From an uncultured Ruminococcus sp. (GTDB lineage: Bacteria > Bacillota > Clostridia > Lachnospirales > Lachnospiraceae), in assembly GCA_900555215.1 (NCBI GenBank), contig USKR01000016.1, positions 1 through 11,124 of the forward strand: 11,124 nucleotides of DNA, given 5' to 3'. Positions 179 to 11,124 of the stretch are shown here, one piece after another (the stretch's first letter is position 1; every line of letters starts with the position of its first letter). The notes beneath the pieces are model-generated. The model saw only the letters and a program-made list of their open reading frames with translations. It was not told where the DNA came from and did not search any database. The translations under genes were made by a program, and so were the position numbers.

Positions 179-754
179 TTACAGCACTACCTTTCCGGTC
201 GTGTTTCCGTTTACTACATAATAAGCAGCGGACTCTTCCGGCTTCAGATAGATCTGCACATCTTTAATATCATCTACATTGTTGTTCAGATCATATGTCC
301 AGATATCTTTTACTTTCTGAAGGATTTCATCCTGTGTATACTCCTTGCCGGAGAACTGCAGGAAAATCTCTGTCTTGATCTCAGCCTTCTCAGCCGCTGT
401 CTTCTTAACTGTTGTTGTCTTCTTAGCTGTGGTTTTCTTTGCCGCTGTTGTCTTCTTTGCCGCCGTTGTCTTCTTTGCCGCCGTCTTCTTCGGGGCTGTC
501 TTCTTTGCAGTTGTCTTCTCTGCTGCCTTTTCTGCCGGTGTATCTACTAAAACTGCTGCCTTTGTCTCAAGCTTTTTCGTTGTGTCTTTCTTTGTCTCGA
601 TAGCCTTCGCCGGTTCTGCCTTCTCTGCTTTGTCCACAGTTTTTGCAGGCTCTGTCTTTACGGCTTTCTCTGCTGTCTTCGCCGGTTCTGCCTTAACCTC
701 AGCTGTTTTCTTAGCTGCTGTTTTTGCTGTTGAAGTTGCTTTCTTTAATGCCAT
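179..754 (-). CDS. Histone H1-like Lys/Ala/Thr-rich protein with C-terminal DUF6465-type domain
   Basis: The 191-residue protein has two parts. Residues 1-127 are low-complexity and strongly basic, built from K, A, T, E and P, with PAKT/EPAK units early and tandem AAKKTT units at about 88-112. Residues 128-191 form a compact folded-looking domain (IFLQFSGKEYTQDEI at its start, ending TTGKVVL) of the kind I recall as DUF6465 in Lachnospiraceae. The tail composition resembles eukaryotic H1 and bacterial HU/Hc1-like tails, so binding to DNA or RNA is plausible, but no function is shown. The start at 754 is set by AGGAGGG seven bases upstream. It has its own promoter and terminator, so it is probably separate from the fatty-acid operon. 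There is no signal peptide or membrane segment, so it should be cytoplasmic. Confidence 0.85.
   Translation of the reverse strand: MALKKATSTAKTAAKKTAEVKAEPAKTAEKAVKTEPAKTVDKAEKAEPAKAIETKKDTTKKLETKAAVLVDTPAEKAAEKTTAKKTAPKKTAAKKTTAAKKTTAAKKTTAKKTTTVKKTAAEKAEIKTEIFLQFSGKEYTQDEILQKVKDIWTYDLNNNVDDIKDVQIYLKPEESAAYYVVNGNTTGKVVL
429..482 (-). repeat. 18-bp tandem repeat inside the H1-like gene
   Basis: On the plus strand the unit GTTGTCTTCTTTGCCGCC occurs twice without change (447-464 and 465-482), with a third copy at 429-446 carrying three differences. Each unit encodes six residues of the AAKKTT type. A codon-level repeat this exact suggests recent slippage expansion or contraction of the basic tail, as is common in such proteins. 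Confidence 0.8.
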
Positions 755-928: not shown

Positions 929-1381
929 TCAATTTTGTATTCTGTCCTTATATCCTCTGAAAAAATCAGACAGACCCTTTAGTGTCTTTATAAGAACCGG
1001 AATTTCTTCTTCTCCGAGAGTACCGATCACCGCGTCTGTCATCTGCCGATGGTACTCCTGATGATGTTCATATGCCTTGACCCCCTTTGGGGTAAGCCTC
1101 AGGAATATGACTCGACGGTCCTGCTCACTCCTCTGACGTACCACATATTTTTTGTTGACGAGACCGTTTACCGACGTTGTGAGAGAACCTGCCGTGATCC
1201 CCATCTTTTTTGCCACCATTGACATGGTATTCTCTCCGGACAGACCGATTGCTTCTATAATATGCATATCATTGTTAGTAATATCTTTAAACTCTTCTGT
1301 TATGATGGCATCCTCTTCCAGCTTCCATATTTCATTAAATAGATTCACCAGAATATCATTAATGGTCTCACGTGGATTCAT
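929..1381 (-). CDS. fabT: FabT-like MarR-family transcriptional regulator
   Basis: This 150-residue winged-helix protein has the MarR layout: an N-terminal helix region, the FKDITNNDMHIIEAIG helix (31-46), the helix-turn-helix at about 52-80 (MSMVAKKMGITAGSLTTSV) and the wing carrying RSEQDRRVIFLRLTPKG (84-100). The FKDI..(K/N)(D/E)MH.I, TTS.N.L and RSEQDRRV segments match what I remember of streptococcal FabT, which represses fab genes using long-chain acyl-ACP as corepressor. That comparison is from memory. The start at 1381 is chosen over the longer frame to 1456 because AAAGGAG sits seven bases upstream and the extra 25 residues would overlap the previous gene. It follows the FabX-like gene by 17 bases and is probably co-transcribed. 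I could not find a FabT-type operator in the window; the operon promoter lies outside it. Confidence 0.85.
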   Translation of the reverse strand: MNPRETINDILVNLFNEIWKLEEDAIITEEFKDITNNDMHIIEAIGLSGENTMSMVAKKMGITAGSLTTSVNGLVNKKYVVRQRSEQDRRVIFLRLTPKGVKAYEHHQEYHRQMTDAVIGTLGEEEIPVLIKTLKGLSDFFRGYKDRIQN

Positions 1382-1398: not shown

Positions 1399-2451
1399 TC
1401 AGGCAAACAGCTCCTGTATGGCGTCCCTGACTGTATCGATCTTCTCCGCCTTCCATGCTTTTGCCCCGCAGAAGAGGAGTCCTTTATCAACATTTCCTTT
1501 CACCGCATTGATCAGACCGTCTGTAATACAGTACGGGATATCAGCCGGATTACATTTTGCCAGACACCTGTGGCATGGGCTGTGAGGAATCTGGATTCCC
1601 TTCGCCACCTGCTCCATGAGCGGGTTCAGTATCGCCCTCCCCGGCATTCCCACCGGACTTTTAACGATCATAATGTCTTCTTTCGCAGCATTGACATATG
1701 CCTGTTTATAACGGATATCCGCATCGCATTCTTCTGTTGTGACAAACCGGGTCGCCACCTGTACTCCGTCCACGCCGAGTTCCATCACACGCCTTACATC
1801 ACTACTGTCATAGATGCCTCCCGCTGCAACAACGGGAATCTCTGTACGGTACTTTTCCGCATACCTCCTTACGGTACGGAGGATCTTCCGGATTTCTTCT
1901 CCGTATGATTCCTGCGTATACTCTGCCAGTTCTTCCTTTTTAAAGCCAAGATGCCCGCCGGCTTCCGGTCCCTCTATCACAACCAGGTCTGCAGTTCTTT
2001 TATACTTTCTGTCCCAGTATTTCAGAATGACATTTGCAGACTTATCCGTGGATACGATCGGAGCTATCTTAGTATTACTTCCCGCTGTCAGAGCCGGCAG
2101 GTCTGTCGGAAGCCCTGCCCCCGAGATAATAATGTCCGCACCTGCCCTGACTGCTGCTTTCACATGAGCCGCATGCTCTTTCAGGGCAGTCATGATATTA
2201 TATCCTATGATGCCGTCATGCGAGATCTCCCTCGCCTTTCTCATCTCGCTCTCAATCGCTCTTATATTTGCCTCCGCAGGCGCTCTGTCAAAGTCCTCTT
2301 CCCGGTACCCGATCTGAGCGCTGGAGATGATTCCTATACCGCCTTCTCCGGCGACTGTCCCTGCCAGCCTCCCCAGACTGATTCCTACGCCCATTCCACC
2401 CTGGATCAGAGGAATTTTCGTGATTTTTTCACCAATCCTGATATTTTTCAT
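1399..2451 (-). CDS. FabX-like NMO-family flavoprotein (nitronate monooxygenase family; possible enoyl-ACP dehydrogenase/isomerase)
   Basis: A 350-residue FMN-dependent TIM barrel of the nitronate monooxygenase/FabK superfamily. Visible motifs are IQGGMGVGIS (16-25), SGAGLPTDLP (110-119), EGPEAGGHLGF with the likely catalytic His167, VVAAGGIYDSSDV (207-219) and GVQVATRFVTTEECDA (229-244). Unlike FabK it has an extra C-terminal cysteine cluster, C293-x2-C296-x3-C300-x7-C308. The layout, including KSPVG.P.RA, the cysteines and YCI.DGL, closely resembles Helicobacter pylori FabX as I remember it. FabX is a [4Fe-4S] flavoenzyme that makes unsaturated fatty acids by oxidising and isomerising acyl-ACP. 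The start at 2451 is chosen over the frame open to 2520 because GAGGA lies just before it and the longer form would overlap the accD-accA gene by 61 bases. It sits between accDA and the FabT-like gene. Family membership is firm; the reaction is inferred. A generic nitronate monooxygenase or second enoyl reductase remains possible. Confidence 0.8.
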   Translation of the reverse strand: MKNIRIGEKITKIPLIQGGMGVGISLGRLAGTVAGEGGIGIISSAQIGYREEDFDRAPAEANIRAIESEMRKAREISHDGIIGYNIMTALKEHAAHVKAAVRAGADIIISGAGLPTDLPALTAGSNTKIAPIVSTDKSANVILKYWDRKYKRTADLVVIEGPEAGGHLGFKKEELAEYTQESYGEEIRKILRTVRRYAEKYRTEIPVVAAGGIYDSSDVRRVMELGVDGVQVATRFVTTEECDADIRYKQAYVNAAKEDIMIVKSPVGMPGRAILNPLMEQVAKGIQIPHSPCHRCLAKCNPADIPYCITDGLINAVKGNVDKGLLFCGAKAWKAEKIDTVRDAIQELFA

Positions 2452-2456
2452 TTCTG

Positions 2457-2461
2457 TCCTC
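2457..2461 (-). promoter_or_regulatory. Ribosome binding site overlapping the accDA stop
   Basis: GAGGA, five bases before ATG at 2451, shares bases with the TGA stop (2460-2462) of the previous gene. This suggests translational coupling and supports the 350-residue start of the FabX-like protein. Confidence 0.7.
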
Positions 2462-4154
2462 ACATCCTGCGGAATCTCTGATACCGCTTTTCTGTCAGCG
2501 CCTCTGTATCCATTGCGCAATATTTTTCAAGGAAACCTTTAATCCTGTATTCCATATCTCTGCAAACGCCGTCCAGATTTTCATCGCTGAACTCTTCAGG
2601 TTCGCGGATCACCTGTTCTACGATGCCCAGGCGTTCCAAGTCCTGCGCTGTCAGCTTCATAACCTCTGCCGCCTCACTTGCTCTCTTGCTGTCTTTCCAG
2701 AGGATACTTGCAAATCCCTCAGGTGAGAGAACTGAATAAACAGAATTTTCCAGCATCCATACCTCATCTGCCACAGCCATCGCCAGGGCTCCCCCGCTTC
2801 CGCCTTCACCGATCACGACCGACAGGACCGGGACCTTCAGACCTGAAAGCTCAAACAGGTTTCTGGCGATCGCTTCGCCCTGGCCTCTCTCTTCCGCCTC
2901 AAGCCCGCAGAAAGCTCCCGGAGTATCTACAAAACAGATGACCGGACGCCCGAATTTTTCTGCCTGCTTCATCAGGCGGAGCGCCTTTCTGTATCCGTCC
3001 GGTGACGGCATAGAGAAGTTTCTGTCAAGATTTTCCTTTGTTGTCTTTCCTTTCGCCTGGGCGATCACTGTCACCGGCATACCGTGGAAATAAGCGACGC
3101 CTCCCACGATCGCGTGATCGTCCTTAAAATAACGGTCTCCATGGAACTCCATGAAATCCGTAAACAGTTTCCCAATATAATCTGTCCCGACCGGGCGGTT
3201 CTTTTTCCTTGATATCTGAACTCTCTCCCATGCTGTCAGATTACTTCTGACCGCCTTTTCCACAGATTCCTGTGCTGCTCCTTTCTCCTCATCATGCAGT
3301 TTCTTTCCACTGTGGATCTCCAGGATCTGCGAAAGAACATCCTTCATCTCCTCCCGCTCCACTATCCGGTCAACAAACCCATGTTCCAGAAGGAATTCCG
3401 AGCGCTGGAAGCCTTTCGGAAGTTTCTGTCCGATGGTCTGTTCGATAACACGCGGTCCTGCAAATCCGATCAGAGCTTTCGGCTCTGCCAGAATGATATC
3501 GCCGAGCATTGCAAAACTTGCCGTAACTCCACCTGTGGTAGGATCAGTCAGCACAGAAATGTATAGCTGCCCCGCGTCACTGTGCTTTTTAAGGGCTGCC
3601 GACGTCTTTGCCATCTGCATCAGGGATACGATCCCCTCCTGCATCCTCGCCCCTCCGGAACAGGTAAAAATGATAACCGGGAGTTTCTCTTCAGTCGCTC
3701 TCTCCACTGCTCTAGTGATCTTTTCTCCTACAATATGCCCCATGCTGGCCATCATGAACCTTCCGTCGCACACACCGATCACAGCCGGATTGCCATTGAT
3801 CAGGATCCTGCCTGTGACAACCGCTTCATTCAGCTTCGTATGCTCCTTCAGGCGTTCAACTTTTTCTTCATATCCTCTGAAATCCAGCGGGTTAACGAAT
3901 TCCATCTCCTTATCCCACTCTTCAAACGAACCTTCGTCCGCCAGCATTTCAATTCTCCGATATGCATGCACTCGAAAATATCCATGACATTTAGGGCAGA
4001 TATAATACCCTTTCTTCACGTCCTCGGCAATGATCGCCGCACCGCATTTGTTACACTTGCGGAGAAGCCCTGCCGGCACCTCCGGCCTCCCGCTCTTCAG
4101 TGATATATAATGAGACCTGCTGCTGGTCTTCTTAAACATATCTTTTAATTTCAT
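2460..4154 (-). CDS. accD-accA: Fused acetyl-CoA carboxylase carboxyltransferase, beta (AccD) plus alpha (AccA)
   Basis: One 564-residue reading frame holds both carboxyltransferase subunits, which move the carboxyl group from biotin to acetyl-CoA to give malonyl-CoA. The AccD half spans about 1-285. It has a four-cysteine zinc finger (C34, C37, C53, C56), the SGGARMQEG motif (166-174) and [10 protein letters not shown] (231-240). The AccA half spans about 303-564, with [15 protein letters not shown] (338-352), FVDTPGAF (408-415), [10 protein letters not shown] (449-458) and [14 protein letters not shown] (474-487), ending RYQRFRRM. Separate bacterial AccD and AccA are about 300 and 320 residues, so the fusion is shortened mainly at the AccA N-terminal helical region, with a linker at about 283-302. 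There is no stop, frameshift sign or internal start at the joint. AGGAGG ten bases before ATG sets the start. It works with AccB and AccC from the same operon in the cytoplasm. Confidence 0.95.
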
Positions 4155-4249: not shown

Positions 4250-5584
4250 TCACATGTTTTCTATAAATTCAATATCAATGTTTCCTTCTATAAAATCTGG
4301 ATGATTGAGGATCTCATACTGATAATCCACATTCGTGTCAATTCCTTCAATGATCACTTCTCCAAGAGCGCTGCGCATCTTTTTGATTGCTTCGCTCCGG
4401 TTCTTTGCATGGACGATCAGCTTCGCCAGCATGGAATCATAGTAGGGCGGCACTGTATAACCACTGTAAATAGCAGAGTCGATACGGACGCCCTTTCCGC
4501 CCGGCAGATACATATCTGTGATCGTTCCCGGCGAAGGACGGAAGTTCTTCTCCGGATTTTCCGCATTGATCCTGCACTCGATGGCATGCCCCGTAATATG
4601 GACGTCTTCCTGTCTATAACTCAGAGCCTGCCCGTCCGCAATGCGGATCTGTTCCTTGACCAGGTCAATGCCTGTCACCCATTCGGTGACCGGATGCTCC
4701 ACCTGGATCCTGGTATTCATCTCCATGAAATAAAAATTCCCGTTCTTCTCCAGAAGGAACTCAATCGTCCCGGCATTTGTATAATGAGCCGCTTTTGCCG
4801 CCTTCACTGCCGCCTCTCCCATCTTCTCTCTCAGTTCCGGCGTCAATGCGATAGAGGGGGACTCTTCGATCATTTTCTGATGATTCCTCTGGATTGAACA
4901 GTCTCTCTCTCCTAAATGGATCACATTCCCATGATCATCCGCGAGGATCTGGAACTCGATATGCCGGGGATGCTGCACAAAATGTTCGATGTACATCGTA
5001 TTATCCCCGAATGCCATCTGCGCTTCCTTCTGAGCCGTATTAAAGCTGTTCTCAAACTCTTCCGGCGTCTCCGCAACCCGCATTCCTTTGCCGCCGCCGC
5101 CGAGAGCCGCCTTGACGATTACGGGATATCCAATCTCCGCCGCCGCCTGCGCTCCGGTCTCTGCGTCGAAGATCGGATCTTTGCTTCCCGGTATGACCGG
5201 GACACCCGCATTGATCATCGTATTCCTTGCCTCAGACTTGTTCCCCAGACTCTGGATAACTTCGGATCTGGGACCGATAAATGTAATATTGCACTGTTCG
5301 CACAACTCTGCGAACTTACTGTTCTCCGACAGGAAACCAAATCCCGGATGGATCGCATCCGCACCTGACACAAGAGTCGCGCTGATGATATTCTGCATGT
5401 TCAGATAACTTTCAGAAGACGGAGCCGGACCGATGCAGACGGCCTCATCCGCGAGCTGCGTGTGCAGCGCATCCCTGTCTGCCTCCGAATAAACCGCGAC
5501 TGTCTCAATACCCATCTCGCGGCATGCCCGGATGATCCGGACTGCGATCTCGCCGCGGTTGGCGATCAATACTTTTCCAATCAT
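4250..5584 (-). CDS. accC: Acetyl-CoA carboxylase biotin carboxylase subunit
   Basis: The 444-residue ATP-grasp enzyme carboxylates the biotin on AccB using ATP and bicarbonate, the first step of malonyl-CoA synthesis. The N-terminal domain opens with [20 protein letters not shown] (4-23). The glycine-rich ATP loop is GGGGKGMRV (162-170), [10 protein letters not shown] covers 235-244, and the metal- and substrate-binding block [15 protein letters not shown] (287-301) holds E288, N290 and R292. R338 lies in ECRINAENP. The length matches the family (about 445-450). It follows fabZ by six bases, with GGGGAG just upstream of the fabZ stop serving as its ribosome site, which indicates tight coupling. 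All key residues appear intact. Confidence 0.97.
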
Positions 5585-5590
5585 CTTCTA

Positions 5591-6022
5591 TTACTCCCCT
5601 ACCATAAATGTCAGTTCCGCGCTGACAACTACCTTTCCGTCAACATAAGCCGTCGCCTGTCCCACTCCGACAGGGCCTTTGCTCTTAATGATCTTTGTCT
5701 CCAGTTTCAGCGTATCCCCCGGGAATACCATCCCTTTGAAACGGCATTTCTGGACGCCGCCGAAAAATGCGATCTTCCCCTGATTCTCCGGCATGCTCAG
5801 GATCGCCACCGCGCCCGTCTGCGCCAGCGCCTCAAGGATCAGGACGCCCGGCATCACTGCCTTCTGCGGGAAATGCCCTTTGAAGAAATCTTCGCGGTAT
5901 GTCACTGCCTTATATCCGACCGCGTATTCCCCCGGCACATAATCCTCGATCTTATCGATCAGGAGGAAGGGATGTCTGTGAGGAATGATCTCCTGAATCT
6001 GTTCAACATTTAGACTATTCAT
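5591..6022 (-). CDS. fabZ: 3-hydroxyacyl-ACP dehydratase FabZ
   Basis: A 143-residue hot-dog-fold enzyme that dehydrates 3-hydroxyacyl-ACP to trans-2-enoyl-ACP in each elongation cycle. Seen directly are IIPHRHPFLLIDKI (12-25), the catalytic block GHFPQKAVMPGVLILEALAQ (49-68) with His50 and Glu64, and the C-terminal CRFKGMVFPGDTL region. The frame is open to 6103, but the conserved FabZ start (a short helix before PHR.PFLL.D) and AGAAAGG at 6034-6040 support ATG 6022; the ATG at 6103 has no ribosome site. It is the only dehydratase in the window. In organisms lacking FabA, such an enzyme may pair with a separate isomerase, here perhaps the FabX-like protein. Confidence 0.95.
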   Translation of the reverse strand: MNSLNVEQIQEIIPHRHPFLLIDKIEDYVPGEYAVGYKAVTYREDFFKGHFPQKAVMPGVLILEALAQTGAVAILSMPENQGKIAFFGGVQKCRFKGMVFPGDTLKLETKIIKSKGPVGVGQATAYVDGKVVVSAELTFMVGE

Positions 6023-6130: not shown

Positions 6131-6646
6131 TTAGCTTATAACAAAGAGCGGCTGTCCGTACTCTACCGCCTCGCCGTTCTCAACCAGGATCTCTGTCACT
6201 GTGCCTGTGAAATCACTCTCGATCTCATTCATCAGCTTCATTGCCTCTACAATTGCAAGCACCTGTCCCTCTTTGACACTGTCCCCTTCTTTAACAAACG
6301 GCTCCGCATCCTCGGAAGGAGCCGCATAAAACGTACCTACGAGCGGTGACTTCACAATTCTGCCTGACGGCACATGCTCTGCTTTTCCACCTTCTGCCGC
6401 TGCATCCGCAGGCGTTCCCGAGACAGGCGCTTCAGATGCTGCAGGCGGCATAACCGCCGGAACCGCTCCCGAAATACCCGGAGCGATCACAGGCGCTGTC
6501 AGAGCGGGCGCAGGAGCCTGTACCTGTACGATCTTGTCAGAGGTCTTTTTCAGAGAAAGCTTTACGCCGTCCTCCTCATATTTAAACTCTGTAAGATTTG
6601 ATTCCGAAACAGCTTTGACCAGTTCTAATACCTGTTCTACTTTCAT
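6131..6646 (-). CDS. accB: Biotin carboxyl carrier protein of acetyl-CoA carboxylase
   Basis: A 171-residue carrier whose biotin swings between AccC and the carboxyltransferase. Residues 1-35 form an N-terminal helical segment ([20 protein letters not shown]), about 42-95 form an alanine/proline-rich flexible linker, and 98-171 form the biotinyl domain. The biotin attachment motif is EAMKLMNEI, with Lys137 as the modified residue. The chain ends GQPLFVIS, typical of the family. The start ATG 6646 is chosen because AAGAGG lies eight bases upstream. A GTG three codons earlier would overlap that site. It starts 12 bases after the fabF stop. Confidence 0.96.
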
Positions 6647-6654
6647 CCCGTACA

Positions 6655-6660
6655 CCTCTT
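6655..6660 (-). promoter_or_regulatory. Ribosome binding site deciding the accB start
   Basis: AAGAGG, eight bases before ATG 6646, overlaps the fabF stop codon. It favours the ATG over the GTG at 6655, giving a 171-residue product and likely coupling to fabF translation. Confidence 0.75.
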
Positions 6661-7897
6661 ACCCTTCATATTTCTTTAACAACAGTGTCGCATTATGTCC
6701 GCCGAATCCGAGGGAATTAGTGAGCACATAGTTCACATCTTTTTCCACCGGCGCACCTACCGCATAGTTCAGGTCGCACTCCGGATCCACGTTCTCTGTC
6801 CCCACTGTCTGATGGATAAATCCGTCTTCAATACTCTTTACACAAACAACAAATTCAACGCCGCCTGCTGCCCCGAGCAGATGTCCGATCATGGACTTTG
6901 TAGAATTCACTACAACATCCTTTGCCGCATCGCCAAGCGCGAACTTGATCGCCTTTGTCTCGAACAGGTCATTATGATGGGTGCTTGTTCCGTGGGCATT
7001 GATATAATCAATCTGCTCCGGAGCCACATCCGCTTCCTTCATGGCAAGCTTCATAGCCATTCCCGCGCCTTCTCCGTCCTCTGCCGGGGAAGTGATGTGG
7101 TATGCGTCTCCGGTCGCTCCGTATCCCACCAGCTCTGCGTAGATCTTCGCACCTCTGGCCTTGGCATGTTCCAGCTCTTCCAGGACAACGATACCGGATC
7201 CCTCGCCCAGGACAAATCCGTCTCTGTCCTTGTCAAACGGGCGGGAAGCATGCTCCGGGTCATTTGTCGTGGACAGCGCGGTAAGCGCCGTAAATCCTGC
7301 GATGCCTGTAGGACATACAGAAGCCTCCGTACCGCCTGCTACCATTACATCCGCATCTCCATACTGGATTGCGCGGAACGCGTCTCCGATACAATGCGTG
7401 CCAGAAGCACACGCTGTCACTACATTTGTACATTTTCCCTTCAGTCCGAGCTGGATCGAAATATTTCCTGCCGCCATGTTAGAAATCATGAGCGGAACCA
7501 TCAGCGGATTCACCTTGTTCGGTCCTTTTGTCAGGATCTTCTCATAGTTCGTCTCCACACACTGCAGGCTTCCGATGCCGGATCCGACGATCACGCCCAC
7601 GCGGTACGGATCTTCCTTCTCCATATCCATGCCCGCGTCCTCAAACGCTTCCTTAGCCGCAGCGACCGCATACTGTGAAAACAGCTCCATCCTCTTCGCC
7701 GCCTTAAAGTCCATGCGCTCCTTTGCCACAAAATCCTTCACCTCAGCCGCGATCTGCACCTTAAACTCGGACGCATCGAACTTCGTGATCGGTCCGATGC
7801 CGACCTTGCCTTCCTTAATTCCTGCCCAGAACTCATCCACCGTATTCCCGATCGGCGTCACAGCCCCCAGACCAGTTACAACAACTCTTCTCTTCAT
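6659..7897 (-). CDS. fabF: 3-oxoacyl-ACP synthase II (FabF)
   Basis: The 412-residue condensing enzyme adds malonyl-ACP units to growing acyl-ACP. The thiolase fold opens RRVVVTGLGAVTPIG. The catalytic triad is complete: Cys163 in TACASGTHCIGDA, His302 in NAHGTSTHHND and His339 in KSMIGHLLGAAGG. The C-terminal NSLGFGGHNATLLLKKY block is standard. The length agrees with FabF (about 410), and as the only long-chain elongation synthase in the window it would have to elongate both saturated and unsaturated chains if the latter are made. It starts 37 bases after fabG, with a purine-rich site GGAAAGGAAAG upstream. Confidence 0.97.
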   Translation of the reverse strand: MKRRVVVTGLGAVTPIGNTVDEFWAGIKEGKVGIGPITKFDASEFKVQIAAEVKDFVAKERMDFKAAKRMELFSQYAVAAAKEAFEDAGMDMEKEDPYRVGVIVGSGIGSLQCVETNYEKILTKGPNKVNPLMVPLMISNMAAGNISIQLGLKGKCTNVVTACASGTHCIGDAFRAIQYGDADVMVAGGTEASVCPTGIAGFTALTALSTTNDPEHASRPFDKDRDGFVLGEGSGIVVLEELEHAKARGAKIYAELVGYGATGDAYHITSPAEDGEGAGMAMKLAMKEADVAPEQIDYINAHGTSTHHNDLFETKAIKFALGDAAKDVVVNSTKSMIGHLLGAAGGVEFVVCVKSIEDGFIHQTVGTENVDPECDLNYAVGAPVEKDVNYVLTNSLGFGGHNATLLLKKYEG

Positions 7898-7934: not shown

Positions 7935-8675
7935 TCACATCGCCATTCCGCCGTCTACATTCAGCACCTGCCCGGTGATATACCGCGCCTCATCCGATGC
8001 CAGGAATGCCACTGCATTCGCGATATCTTCTGTCTCTCCAAATTTCCCCAGCGGGATCTGCGCCACAGCGCCTTCCTTTACTTTATCGGACAATACTTCT
8101 GTCATCTCAGTATTGATAAATCCCGGCGCCACCGCATTGACTGTGATCCCCCTGCTCGCAAGCTCTCTTGCCGCGGACTTTGTCAGCCCGATCACCCCAG
8201 CTTTCGACGCCGAGTAGTTTGCCTGACCTGCATTTCCGAGGACACCTGAGACAGATGCCATATTGATGATACGTCCGCCTCTCTGCTTGATCATCTGTCT
8301 CGCTACAAAACGGATGCAGTTAAATGTTCCTTTCAGATTTGTATCCAGGACTGCATCATAGTCTTCTTCTGACATTTTCATCAGCAGCCCGTCTCTTGTG
8401 ATTCCCGCATTATTTACCAGTATATCTACACTTCCGAACTCAGCGATGATCTCTTTAAACATTTCTTCACATGCATCATAATCCGATACATTGCACTGTT
8501 TGATCTCCGCTTTTCCGCCTGCTGCCTCGATCTCCTTTTTCACTTCCTCCGCCCGGTCTTTTGATCCGTTGTAATTGATCACTACCGCCGCGCCTTCGGA
8601 AGCCAGCCTGATCGCCACAGCTTTTCCGATCCCGCGGGAAGCGCCTGTGACTACCGCAACTTTTCCATTTAACAT
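7935..8675 (-). CDS. fabG: 3-oxoacyl-ACP reductase FabG
   Basis: A 246-residue short-chain dehydrogenase that reduces 3-oxoacyl-ACP with NADPH. It shows the nucleotide-binding [12 protein letters not shown] (10-21), NNAG (88-91), Asn113 in DTNLKG, and the catalytic Ser141, Tyr154 and Lys158 in MASVSG...[10 protein letters not shown]. It ends VDGGMAM, as FabG commonly does. The ATG overlaps the fabD stop by seven bases (ATGTTAA), and AAGGTGG lies ten bases upstream inside fabD, so translation is coupled. The residue pattern and operon position make FabG, rather than a generic reductase, nearly certain. Confidence 0.97.
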
Positions 8676-9589
8676 AATTCACTTACCACCTTATCTACAT
8701 CTTCCCATGTGCCGACATTGTAAACTTTCACATCACGGCTGATCTTTCTCATGAAGCCTGCCAGCGTCCTTCCCGGGCCGATCTCCACGAACGTGTCCAC
8801 GCCGTCTGCGATCATGTTTTCCACGCTCTGCTGCCAGCGCACGGAAGACGCGACCTGCTCAGCGAGAAGTTTCTTTGTCTCGCTGATATCTCGCACATAC
8901 TCTGCCGTCACATTGGTCACATACGGGATCTCCAGGGGAGAAAGCTCCACATTCTCAAGAACTCTTCCCAGTTCCGCTCCTGCTTCTTTCAGCATCGGGG
9001 AGTGGAACGGTCCGCTGACATTCAGAGGCATCACGCGCTTCGCGCCTGCCTCTTTGAGAGCCTCGGAAGCTTTTTCCACGCTCTCCTTCCAGCCGGTGAT
9101 CACGATCTGACCAGGGCAGTTATAGTTTGCAATGGTCACGCCGTCGATCTCATTGACAACCTTCTCGATCGCCTCACCTGTCATACCGAGCACTGCCGCC
9201 ATGGAGCCTTTGCCCCCCGGCACTGCATTCTGCATGAGGATGCCGCGCTTTCTCACCACAGCGATCGCGTCTTCCGTTGTCATTCCGCCCGCAGATGCGA
9301 TGGCACAGTACTCTCCCAGGCTTAATCCTGCTGTCACGTCCGCTTTCAATCCGCGCTCTCTCAGTACATGTTCCATTGCCAGACACACTGTCACAAGCGC
9401 TGCCTGTGTGTACTCTGTCTGGTCCAGTTTATCATTTTCTTCAAAGCATAATGCTTTCATATCTATATCCAGCAGCTCAGCCGCCTTATCGATGACTTTC
9501 CTTGCTGTTTCACTCTGTTCATAAAAATCTTTGCCCATCCCGGCTTTCTGCGCTCCCTGTCCCGGGAACATAAATGCGATCTTACTCAT
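8669..9589 (-). CDS. fabD: Malonyl-CoA:ACP transacylase FabD
   Basis: The 306-residue enzyme transfers malonate from CoA to ACP. It begins [11 protein letters not shown] (4-14). Ser90 is the nucleophile in [10 protein letters not shown], Arg115 lies in RKRG and His196 in GPFHSPML, the expected catalytic set. [13 protein letters not shown] (267-279) is the usual C-terminal block. It overlaps fabK by eight bases (ATGAGTAA) at its start and fabG by seven at its end, the tightest part of the operon. GAGGAAAAGG inside the fabK end serves as its ribosome site. Confidence 0.97.
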
Positions 9590-10520
9590 AGAATCCTTTT
9601 CCTCCGATCAGGTCGTCTGTTTCTTTCACCAGCTTCTGGATCAGGTCATGACATGACATCTTCTCTTTGACCATGCCCGCGATCTGTCCTGCCATCACGC
9701 TTCCTGTCTTGACATCGCCCTCTACGACAGCTTTTCTTAAGCCGCCCAGTGTAAGAAGCTCCAGCTCTTCAAAAGAAGCGCCCTCCTGCTCTTTCTGTAA
9801 GTACTCTTTGGTCATCTGATTTCTCAGAGCCCTTACCGGATGTCCTGTGGATCGTCCTGTGACCCTTGAATCAATGTCCCTCGCCTTGATGATCATATCC
9901 TTATAATTTTCATGAACCTGAGATTCATTCGTAACTACAAAGTGAGTTCCCATCTGCACGCCCTGCGCGCCCAGCATGAAGGCTGCCGCGATCCCTCTTC
10001 CGTCGGCGATCCCTCCTGCCGCGATGACCGGGATGCTCACTGCATCCACAACCTGCGGTACAAGTACCATTGTTGTGTTCTCACCGATGTGTCCGCCTGC
10101 CTCAGTTCCCTCTGCAACCAGCGCGTCCGCGCCGCATCTCTCCATACGCTTTGCCAGCGCAACGGATGCGATGACCGGAATCACCTTGACTCCTGCTTCC
10201 TTCCACATCTTCATGTATTTTTCCGGGGATCCGGCTCCGGTCGTAACGACTTTCACGCCTTCCTCCACGATCACTTTTGCCACGTCGTCCGCATACGGAC
10301 TCATGAGCATAATATTTACTCCAAACGGTTTGTCGGTAAGCTTCTTCGCTTCCCTGATCTGATCACGCACCCAGTCAGCCGGCGCGCTCGCTGCACCGAT
10401 CAGCCCGAGGCCGCCGGCTTCGGATACGGCGGCTGCGAGATGATACTCAGCAACCCAGGCCATTCCTCCCTGAATGATCGGATATTCAATTCCCAATAAT
10501 TCGGTTACTTTTGTCTTCAT
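9582..10520 (-). CDS. fabK: FMN-dependent enoyl-ACP reductase II FabK
   Basis: The 312-residue TIM-barrel flavoprotein reduces trans-2-enoyl-ACP, the last step of each cycle. It opens LLGIEYPIIQGGMAWVAEY. TTGAGSPEKY (93-102) and EGTEAGGHIGENTT (137-150) follow, with His144 at the same number as the catalytic histidine of pneumococcal FabK. AAGGIADGRGIAAAFMLGA covers 167-185. Its location between acpP and fabD, as in Streptococcus pneumoniae, supports the call. It lacks the cysteine cluster of the related gene at 1399-2451, so the two are not redundant copies. FabK enzymes are known to resist the FabI inhibitor triclosan. GAAAGG upstream of ATG 10520 is the ribosome site. Confidence 0.96.
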   Translation of the reverse strand: MKTKVTELLGIEYPIIQGGMAWVAEYHLAAAVSEAGGLGLIGAASAPADWVRDQIREAKKLTDKPFGVNIMLMSPYADDVAKVIVEEGVKVVTTGAGSPEKYMKMWKEAGVKVIPVIASVALAKRMERCGADALVAEGTEAGGHIGENTTMVLVPQVVDAVSIPVIAAGGIADGRGIAAAFMLGAQGVQMGTHFVVTNESQVHENYKDMIIKARDIDSRVTGRSTGHPVRALRNQMTKEYLQKEQEGASFEELELLTLGGLRKAVVEGDVKTGSVMAGQIAGMVKEKMSCHDLIQKLVKETDDLIGGKGFYE

Positions 10521-10566: not shown

Positions 10567-10791
10567 TTATTTGTGTGCTTCCAGATACTTCGCTACATCG
10601 CCGACTGTTACGATCTGCTCCAGATCCTCAGACGGAATTTCAACTTCAAACTCCTCTTCAAACGCCATTACCATCTCAAACAGATCCAGGGAGTCAGCGC
10701 CCAGGTCATCTTTGAAGTTTGTCTCCTCTGTAAGCTCTGCCGCATCAACGTTCAGTGATTCTGCCACGATTTCTTTGATCTTCTCTAACAT
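10567..10791 (-). CDS. acpP: Acyl carrier protein
   Basis: A 74-residue, very acidic protein that carries acyl chains on a phosphopantetheine arm. Ser34 in [18 protein letters not shown] is the attachment site, within the usual DSL motif followed by the recognition helix. The length is typical. It sits 101 bases after fabH and 46 before fabK. AAAGGAAAAG upstream of ATG 10791 is its ribosome site. All Fab enzymes of the operon act on its acylated forms. Confidence 0.97.
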
Positions 10792-10892: not shown

Positions 10893-11124
10893 TTACCATT
10901 CAAACAGGCATGCCGCCCATGTGAGACCCGCTCCAAAACCTGAGAGCATGACCTTATCGCCTCTTTTGAGGACATCTTTTCGGTTCAGCTCATCCAGAAG
11001 TATCGGCACAGTCGCTGCTGAAGTGTTTGCATACTCTTCCAGGTTCATAGGGAATTTTGAAATGTCTGTTTTCAGCCTCTTTGCCACTGCTTCAATAATC
11101 CTTCGGTTTGCCTGATGAAGAGAT
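10893..11124 (-). CDS. fabH: 3-oxoacyl-ACP synthase III FabH (C-terminal part; 5' end outside the window)
   Basis: The last 76 codons of the chain-initiating synthase, which condenses acetyl- or branched acyl-CoA with malonyl-ACP. The fragment begins SLHQANRRIIEAVAKRL, with the catalytic histidine in HQAN. It then has EEYANTSAATVPILLDEL with the catalytic asparagine, and ends with GFGAGLTWAACLFEW, the family's C-terminal strand. The catalytic cysteine and the start lie beyond the right edge, so only a partial call is possible. It precedes acpP, as in the streptococcal fab cluster. Confidence 0.93.
   Translation of the reverse strand, partial: SLHQANRRIIEAVAKRLKTDISKFPMNLEEYANTSAATVPILLDELNRKDVLKRGDKVMLSGFGAGLTWAACLFEW

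Follow-up and report, generated by a model that had tools for sequence, protein, structure and literature searches.

A fabX/ufaA-like gene in a fatty acid synthesis operon

We analyzed a stretch of 11,124 nucleotides (the window) from an uncultured Ruminococcus sp. of the Lachnospiraceae (contig USKR01000016.1), focusing on a gene at 1399..2451 that a first-pass annotation, made from the sequence letters, had read as a FabX-like flavoprotein and candidate for an oxygen-independent route to unsaturated fatty acids. The coordinates are correct; the strand, absent from that annotation, is minus, and the plus-strand reading of the same positions is interrupted by a stop. The evidence supports placing the product in the FabX/UfaA lineage, as a clostridial representative, and it probably introduces the double bond into fatty acids, by one or the other of two routes considered below. 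As annotated, the gene lies between accDA and a gene for a FabT-like regulator in an operon that also contains fabK; its ATG is 8 nt downstream of the accDA stop, and the regulator ATG is 17 nt downstream of the fabX-like stop. The features are as follows, "recognized" marking genes named by recognition from their translations:

1399..2451, minus: fabX/ufaA-like gene, 350 amino acids (P0001; alignment, tree, fold)
929..1381, minus: FabT-like MarR regulator, start ATG at 1381 (NF050133, 132 bits, under the cut-off of 200)
2460..4154, minus: accDA fusion (profile match)
4250..5584, minus: accC (recognized)
5591..6022, minus: fabZ, in an open reading frame open to 6103 (NF000582, 173 bits)
6131..6655, minus: accB (recognized)
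6659..7897, minus: fabF (TIGR03150, 623 bits)
7935..8675, minus: fabG (recognized)
8669..9589, minus: fabD (recognized)
9582..10520, minus: fabK, enoyl-ACP reductase (TIGR03151, 491 bits, cut-off 453; FabK structures)
10567..10791, minus: acpP (recognized)
10893..11123, minus: fabH, 3' part only, leaving the window (recognized)

FabT-type palindromes in the window were not above chance (7 observed, 4.6 expected).

Kinship with FabX and conserved cofactor residues

The window protein belongs to the nitronate monooxygenase (NMO) family (PF03060, 154.5 bits; gathering score 28) and is modeled as a barrel, with His167 and four C-terminal cysteines (C293, C296, C300, and C308), in line with the annotated NMO-family barrel and cysteine cluster. 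Its match to H. pylori FabX (E 7e-70, 41% identity) is far beyond chance, and the shared motifs listed in the annotation held but for one residue: QGGMGVGIS, GAGLPT, EGPxxGGHxGFK, KSPVGxPxRA, and YCIxDGL are common to both proteins, whereas the Ile listed before QGG is Phe in FabX. In trees of FabX-like and FabK sequences, built without UfaA, true NMOs, or locus L215, the clostridial sequences group with H. pylori FabX and apart from FabK (Shimodaira–Hasegawa-like approximate likelihood ratio support, SH-aLRT, 97 and 98), and a topology placing them with FabK was rejected by the approximately unbiased test (p-AU 0.039). Helicobacter FabX is nested inside the clostridial sequences in the tree; a separate clostridial clade was not rejected (p-AU 0.31). 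The grouping with true NMOs that the annotation had named as the contrary outcome was not found, these enzymes lying outside the tree and their structures matching less well; the overall predicted fold, including the Fe-S subdomain, matches FabX. Sequence, cofactor residues, tree, and fold thus agree on kinship with FabX.

The same trees bear on a short NMO of ~313 residues ("IQGGMAVRIS" or "GGMAIRIS"), found in 8 of 291 genomes of a class draw (L213-L219 and L231). It has a C-terminal cysteine cluster of its own (C-x2-C-x3-C-x4-C), and the 7 sequences included in the tree branch toward FabX; the seven contexts read held no fab neighbors, and no long FabX-like protein was listed for those genomes. 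It is possibly a short FabX. A distant NMO-like protein of ~317 residues (L105, genome G009) scores 180 bits to the FabK model and is without the cysteine cluster.

Functional residues were located in an alignment of 113 distinct long clostridial sequences, the window protein included; they were picked by BLAST score to that protein, so that overall likeness was selected for. Published work is cited by PubMed Central identifier throughout. The sites, with flavin mononucleotide abbreviated FMN, phosphopantetheine PPant, and acyl carrier protein ACP, are:

1951..1953, minus: His167, corresponding to the catalytic FabX residue His182 (alignment)
1972..1974, minus: Glu160, equivalent of FMN/PPant-contacting Glu175 (alignment; role from PMC8626469)
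1996..2052, minus: residues 134-152, corresponding to the region of helix alpha-7, which binds ACP in FabX (alignment; role from PMC8626469)
1528..1575, minus: putative [4Fe-4S] ligands C293, C296, C300, and C308 (alignment)

The four C-terminal cysteines are kept in all 113 sequences, as are the equivalents of FabX His182, Glu175, Asn99, Gln240, Ser273, Phe339, and Gly341; the T243 equivalent is Thr in 98 and Ser in 15. Cysteine spacing is 2-3-7 in 103 sequences, among them the window protein (C-x2-C-x3-C-x7-C), and 3-3-7 in 10, compared with C-x3-C-x3-C-x11-C in H. pylori FabX (7e1q, 9lt5). These features suggest an FMN barrel enzyme in which a C-terminal [4Fe-4S] domain would occupy the place of the NAD(P)H-binding part of FabK (enoyl-ACP reductase II).

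Distribution, neighborhood, and other routes to unsaturated fatty acids

Among the best 80 of 566 confirmed places in a contig scan for relatives, the nearest named one (L001, uncultured Mediterraneibacter) is 93% identical to the window protein. At 56 of these 80 loci the gene has fab/acc genes on the same strand, with at least three kinds at 51; accDA (46 loci) or fabZ (9) lies directly upstream within 200 bp. The gene was also found in 61 of 68 genomes of the Clostridium cibarium genus (one match spans 317 of 349 positions), 14 of the 61 having a shorter, weaker match, presumably FabK, within 4 kb. In the class draw 114 genomes match at E 1e-20, the weak matches looking mostly FabK-like, and 57 score >240 bits. 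None of 11 viral-contig stretches matching the search pattern encodes a relative.

For co-occurrence we drew 120 genomes from the family of G001, the nearest relative, which is also that of the window (thresholds: FabX-like E 1e-60; FabK E 1e-100; FabV model cut-off). FabX-like genes were present in 54, FabK in 84 (65 over the curated cut-off), and FabV in 14. The 54 comprise 41 genomes with FabK only, 9 with FabV only, 2 with both, and 2 with neither, and in 31 of the 43 having both FabX-like and FabK genes the two lie on one contig within 12 kb. Five fab clusters (L031, L033, L055, L058, and L080) keep the FabX-like gene while FabK is gone and FabV is encoded elsewhere in the same genomes. 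In two genomes (G461, G391) the FabX-like and FabK starts are ~1 kb apart, a tandem pair of one superfamily.

The annotation had seen no fabA, fabM, or fabN; the sole dehydratase found in the window is indeed FabZ, the profiles run including none specific for FabM or FabN. With these profiles we searched 24 genomes, chosen through named loci, all with a FabX-like gene and of unstated completeness. FabK is above cut-off in 17, and FabV is present in 6 of the other 7; the seventh, G007, has neither FabV nor FabZ and is probably incomplete. For FabI, the 7 FabK-less genomes gave 44 short-chain dehydrogenase/reductase matches, and the 41 loci read showed no clear FabI motif (a Tyr-x3-Lys-type motif in 30; no readable frame in 7). 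The FabA/FabZ family is represented by one gene in 22 of the 24 genomes, two in G008, and none in G007, and a desaturase occurs only in G008. Twelve genomes have enoyl-CoA-hydratase-family genes above cut-off, 15 matches in all; of 12 read, 1 is more distant and 11 are alike, the latter being 47-56% identical to one that scores best as a short-chain enoyl-CoA hydratase (351 bits, model cut-off 394). Eleven genomes therefore have a single FabZ-family gene, no above-cut-off hydratase-family gene, and no desaturase. They include G001, itself metagenome-assembled; its one hydratase-family match falls short of the cut-off and sits immediately upstream of the FabX-like gene, at the accDA position. 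The second contrary outcome named in the annotation, a fabM or fabN gene elsewhere in the genome, was thus not encountered with the profiles run.

Among family genomes having any FabA/FabZ-family gene, a second or low-scoring one occurs in 18 of 48 without a FabX-like gene and in 3 of 53 with one (Fisher p 1.3e-4, with the class defined after seeing the data, partial matches in G397 and G460 left out, and kinship ignored). A divergent FabZ (G-D/E-E-F/W/Y-FLxGHFP; L260, L261, L265-L270, L272, L273, L276-L278) is present in 13 family genomes, 12 of them without a FabX-like gene; it is 30-44% identical to the window FabZ, and the two proteins scored against the NCBIfam FabZ model (cut-off 113 bits) pass it with 121.6 and 113.1 bits. 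It is possibly an alternative dehydratase/isomerase.

Apart from the operon, positions 179-754 (minus) of the window encode a Lys/Ala-rich protein of 191 residues with a DUF6465 match (118 bits) and a histone-H1-like match that stays under the threshold.

Proposed role, alternatives, and significance

The annotated role in unsaturated fatty acid synthesis stands in part: we favor it because of the place in the operon, because about half of the genomes tested have no other recognizable route, and because the gene is retained where FabV replaces FabK; a bifunctional FabZ may be a competing source. In the proposed mechanism the FabX-like protein would act on ACP-bound medium-chain acyl chains to give cis-3-enoyl-ACP, which FabF would elongate to unsaturated fatty acids, while FabK (or FabV) would serve the saturated branch. 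Specifically, the trans-2 product of FabZ would be isomerized to cis-3 without net redox change, FMN and His167 serving in proton transfer and the [4Fe-4S] cluster holding or tuning an electron. A parallel for redox-neutral enoyl isomerization with a flavin (FAD) and a [4Fe-4S] cluster is the clostridial 4-hydroxybutyryl-CoA dehydratase/vinylacetyl-CoA isomerase. Double-bond insertion at C10 and C12 is expected to give w7 and w9 acids; published Mediterraneibacter fatty acid profiles include strains with w7 cis acids and other strains with w9 acids.

The reaction of H. pylori FabX is a dehydrogenation of decanoyl-ACP in which O2 accepts the electrons, the product then being isomerized (PMC8626469). 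O2 is unusable for a strict anaerobe, so that the clostridial protein would either isomerize the trans-2 product or dehydrogenate with another acceptor. Because relatives of the host live strictly anaerobically and the portion of the operon within the window contains no electron acceptor gene, we consider redox-neutral isomerization the likelier route, at roughly even chances. The same role could be filled by dehydrogenation and isomerization of decanoyl-ACP in the manner of FabX, with electrons passing to a flavoprotein, a quinone, or enoyl-ACP; this variant we think rather unlikely. The full conservation of the putative cluster ligands fits it, the cluster being given an electron-storing role in dehydrogenation (PMC8626469), while no electron-transfer flavoprotein, ferredoxin, or quinone-linked gene was recognized among the window translations, and FabK would re-reduce the enoyl product. 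In F. nucleatum, moreover, extra FabX raises the minimum inhibitory concentration of a FabK inhibitor (PMC11091888), which would fit, and is more easily understood with, a FabX that uses the substrate of FabK and not its product; the authors of that work hold that FabX is unable to replace FabK. Tentatively, and at less than even chances, clostridial FabX may be an O2-independent, redox-neutral FMN/[4Fe-4S] trans-2/cis-3-enoyl-ACP isomerase from which the O2-using Helicobacter dehydrogenase derived as a microaerophilic branch.

We also considered that the protein might be a backup for FabK, as a second enoyl-ACP reductase. Membership of the FabK superfamily, the partial compensation of FabK inhibition by FabX overexpression in F. 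nucleatum (PMC11091888), and two FabX-like family genomes (G435, G475) without FabK or FabV at the thresholds used would accord with this. However, the window protein scores 107.1 bits on the FabK profile TIGR03151 (cut-off 453.1), its cysteine domain replaces the NAD(P)H part, and 52 of the 54 FabX-like family genomes also have FabK or FabV; retention of the gene in the five fab clusters where FabV has replaced FabK likewise speaks against a reductase, making this reading improbable. Quite improbable, too, is that the protein alters existing acyl chains, such as exogenous unsaturated acids, and makes no double bond: a FabT-like gene lies within 300 bp downstream at 17 of the 80 loci, and Enterococcus FabT is reported to repress fatty acid synthesis in response to exogenous fatty acids, yet the gene has a constant position downstream of accDA or fabZ in biosynthetic operons and the ACP-facing residues are partly kept (K152 and K159). 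A function as a true nitronate monooxygenase, the name under which databases usually list such proteins and the sources list relatives, agrees with PF03060, a broad match only, and is most improbable.

Several observations weigh against a role in double-bond formation, or against the route that we favor. The F74/Y75 loop, which lines the acyl tunnel of H. pylori FabX (PMC8626469), is missing in all 113 aligned sequences, the window protein included, and the tunnel positions G50 and Y277 are Gln in 99 and Met in 103, so that substrate or reaction could differ. At the ACP helix, the window protein has Lys for R164 (the ACP anchor; Lys in 85 sequences, Arg in 16) and Tyr for R160. The characterized relative needs O2 (PMC8626469). 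Of the 80 loci, 24 have no fab/acc neighbor, 8 of these lying near a contig end (<2.1 kb to one side, upstream in 5). The gene is not universal: 66 of the 120 family genomes lack it at E 1e-60 (41 with FabK, 3 with FabV, 22 with neither), 44 of which have FabK or FabV. The searched genomes are of unstated completeness, the profiles run on them include none specific for FabM or FabN, and the published fatty acid profiles were obtained on rich media, which may supply oleate. Finally, dehydratases of the FabZ type that double as isomerases carry no sequence signature by which to tell them (PMC2700279), and therefore a single FabZ may be the source of the double bond; the one C. acetobutylicum FabZ assayed in that work was not an isomerase. 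The window protein has Gln, Met, and Cys at FabX positions 50, 277, and 340, the last (T340 in FabX), beside FMN, being Cys in 90 sequences. Such differences from H. pylori FabX would set a subfamily apart and may alter the chain length handled or the reaction.

The enzyme for anaerobic double-bond insertion has been sought since labeling work in Clostridium, and in 2009 the step in C. acetobutylicum was ascribed to a novel, unknown enzyme (PMC2700279). The broad idea of a FabX/UfaA role in anaerobic unsaturated synthesis is not new, appearing in the title of the 2011 UfaA paper of Isabella and Clark cited in PMC11300592. UfaA of Neisseria gonorrhoeae (NGO1024), likened here by description, is a homologue of FabX without which unsaturated acyl chains are not made anaerobically (PMC11300592). 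The anaerobe Fusobacterium nucleatum has FabK as sole enoyl reductase and a FabX homologue (C4N14_08920) that is 50.8% identical to HpFabX, keeps the Cys and FMN residues, and is described as sharing its operon with a hypothetical gene and not with fab genes (PMC11091888). The clostridial protein joins this known kind with subfamily features and, unlike H. pylori FabX, is encoded in a fab operon containing FabK; we found no published work on clostridial FabX in the open-access literature searched, subscription papers being mostly outside the search.

FabX homologues are described as rarely accompanying healthy gut flora, counting >50% identity (PMC8626469), and as rare in human-associated bacteria (PMC12079444). 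At 41% identity the window protein falls outside the former count, and the selectivity of FabX inhibitors therefore needs checking on gut clostridia; the FabX-like gene in these bacteria bears on drug work with such inhibitors. With the gene in 61 of 68 C. cibarium-genus and 54 of 120 family genomes, an old clostridial question is reduced to one knock-out and one assay, and the FabX-like gene is a strong candidate for double-bond insertion into the membrane fats of such oxygen-free bacteria.
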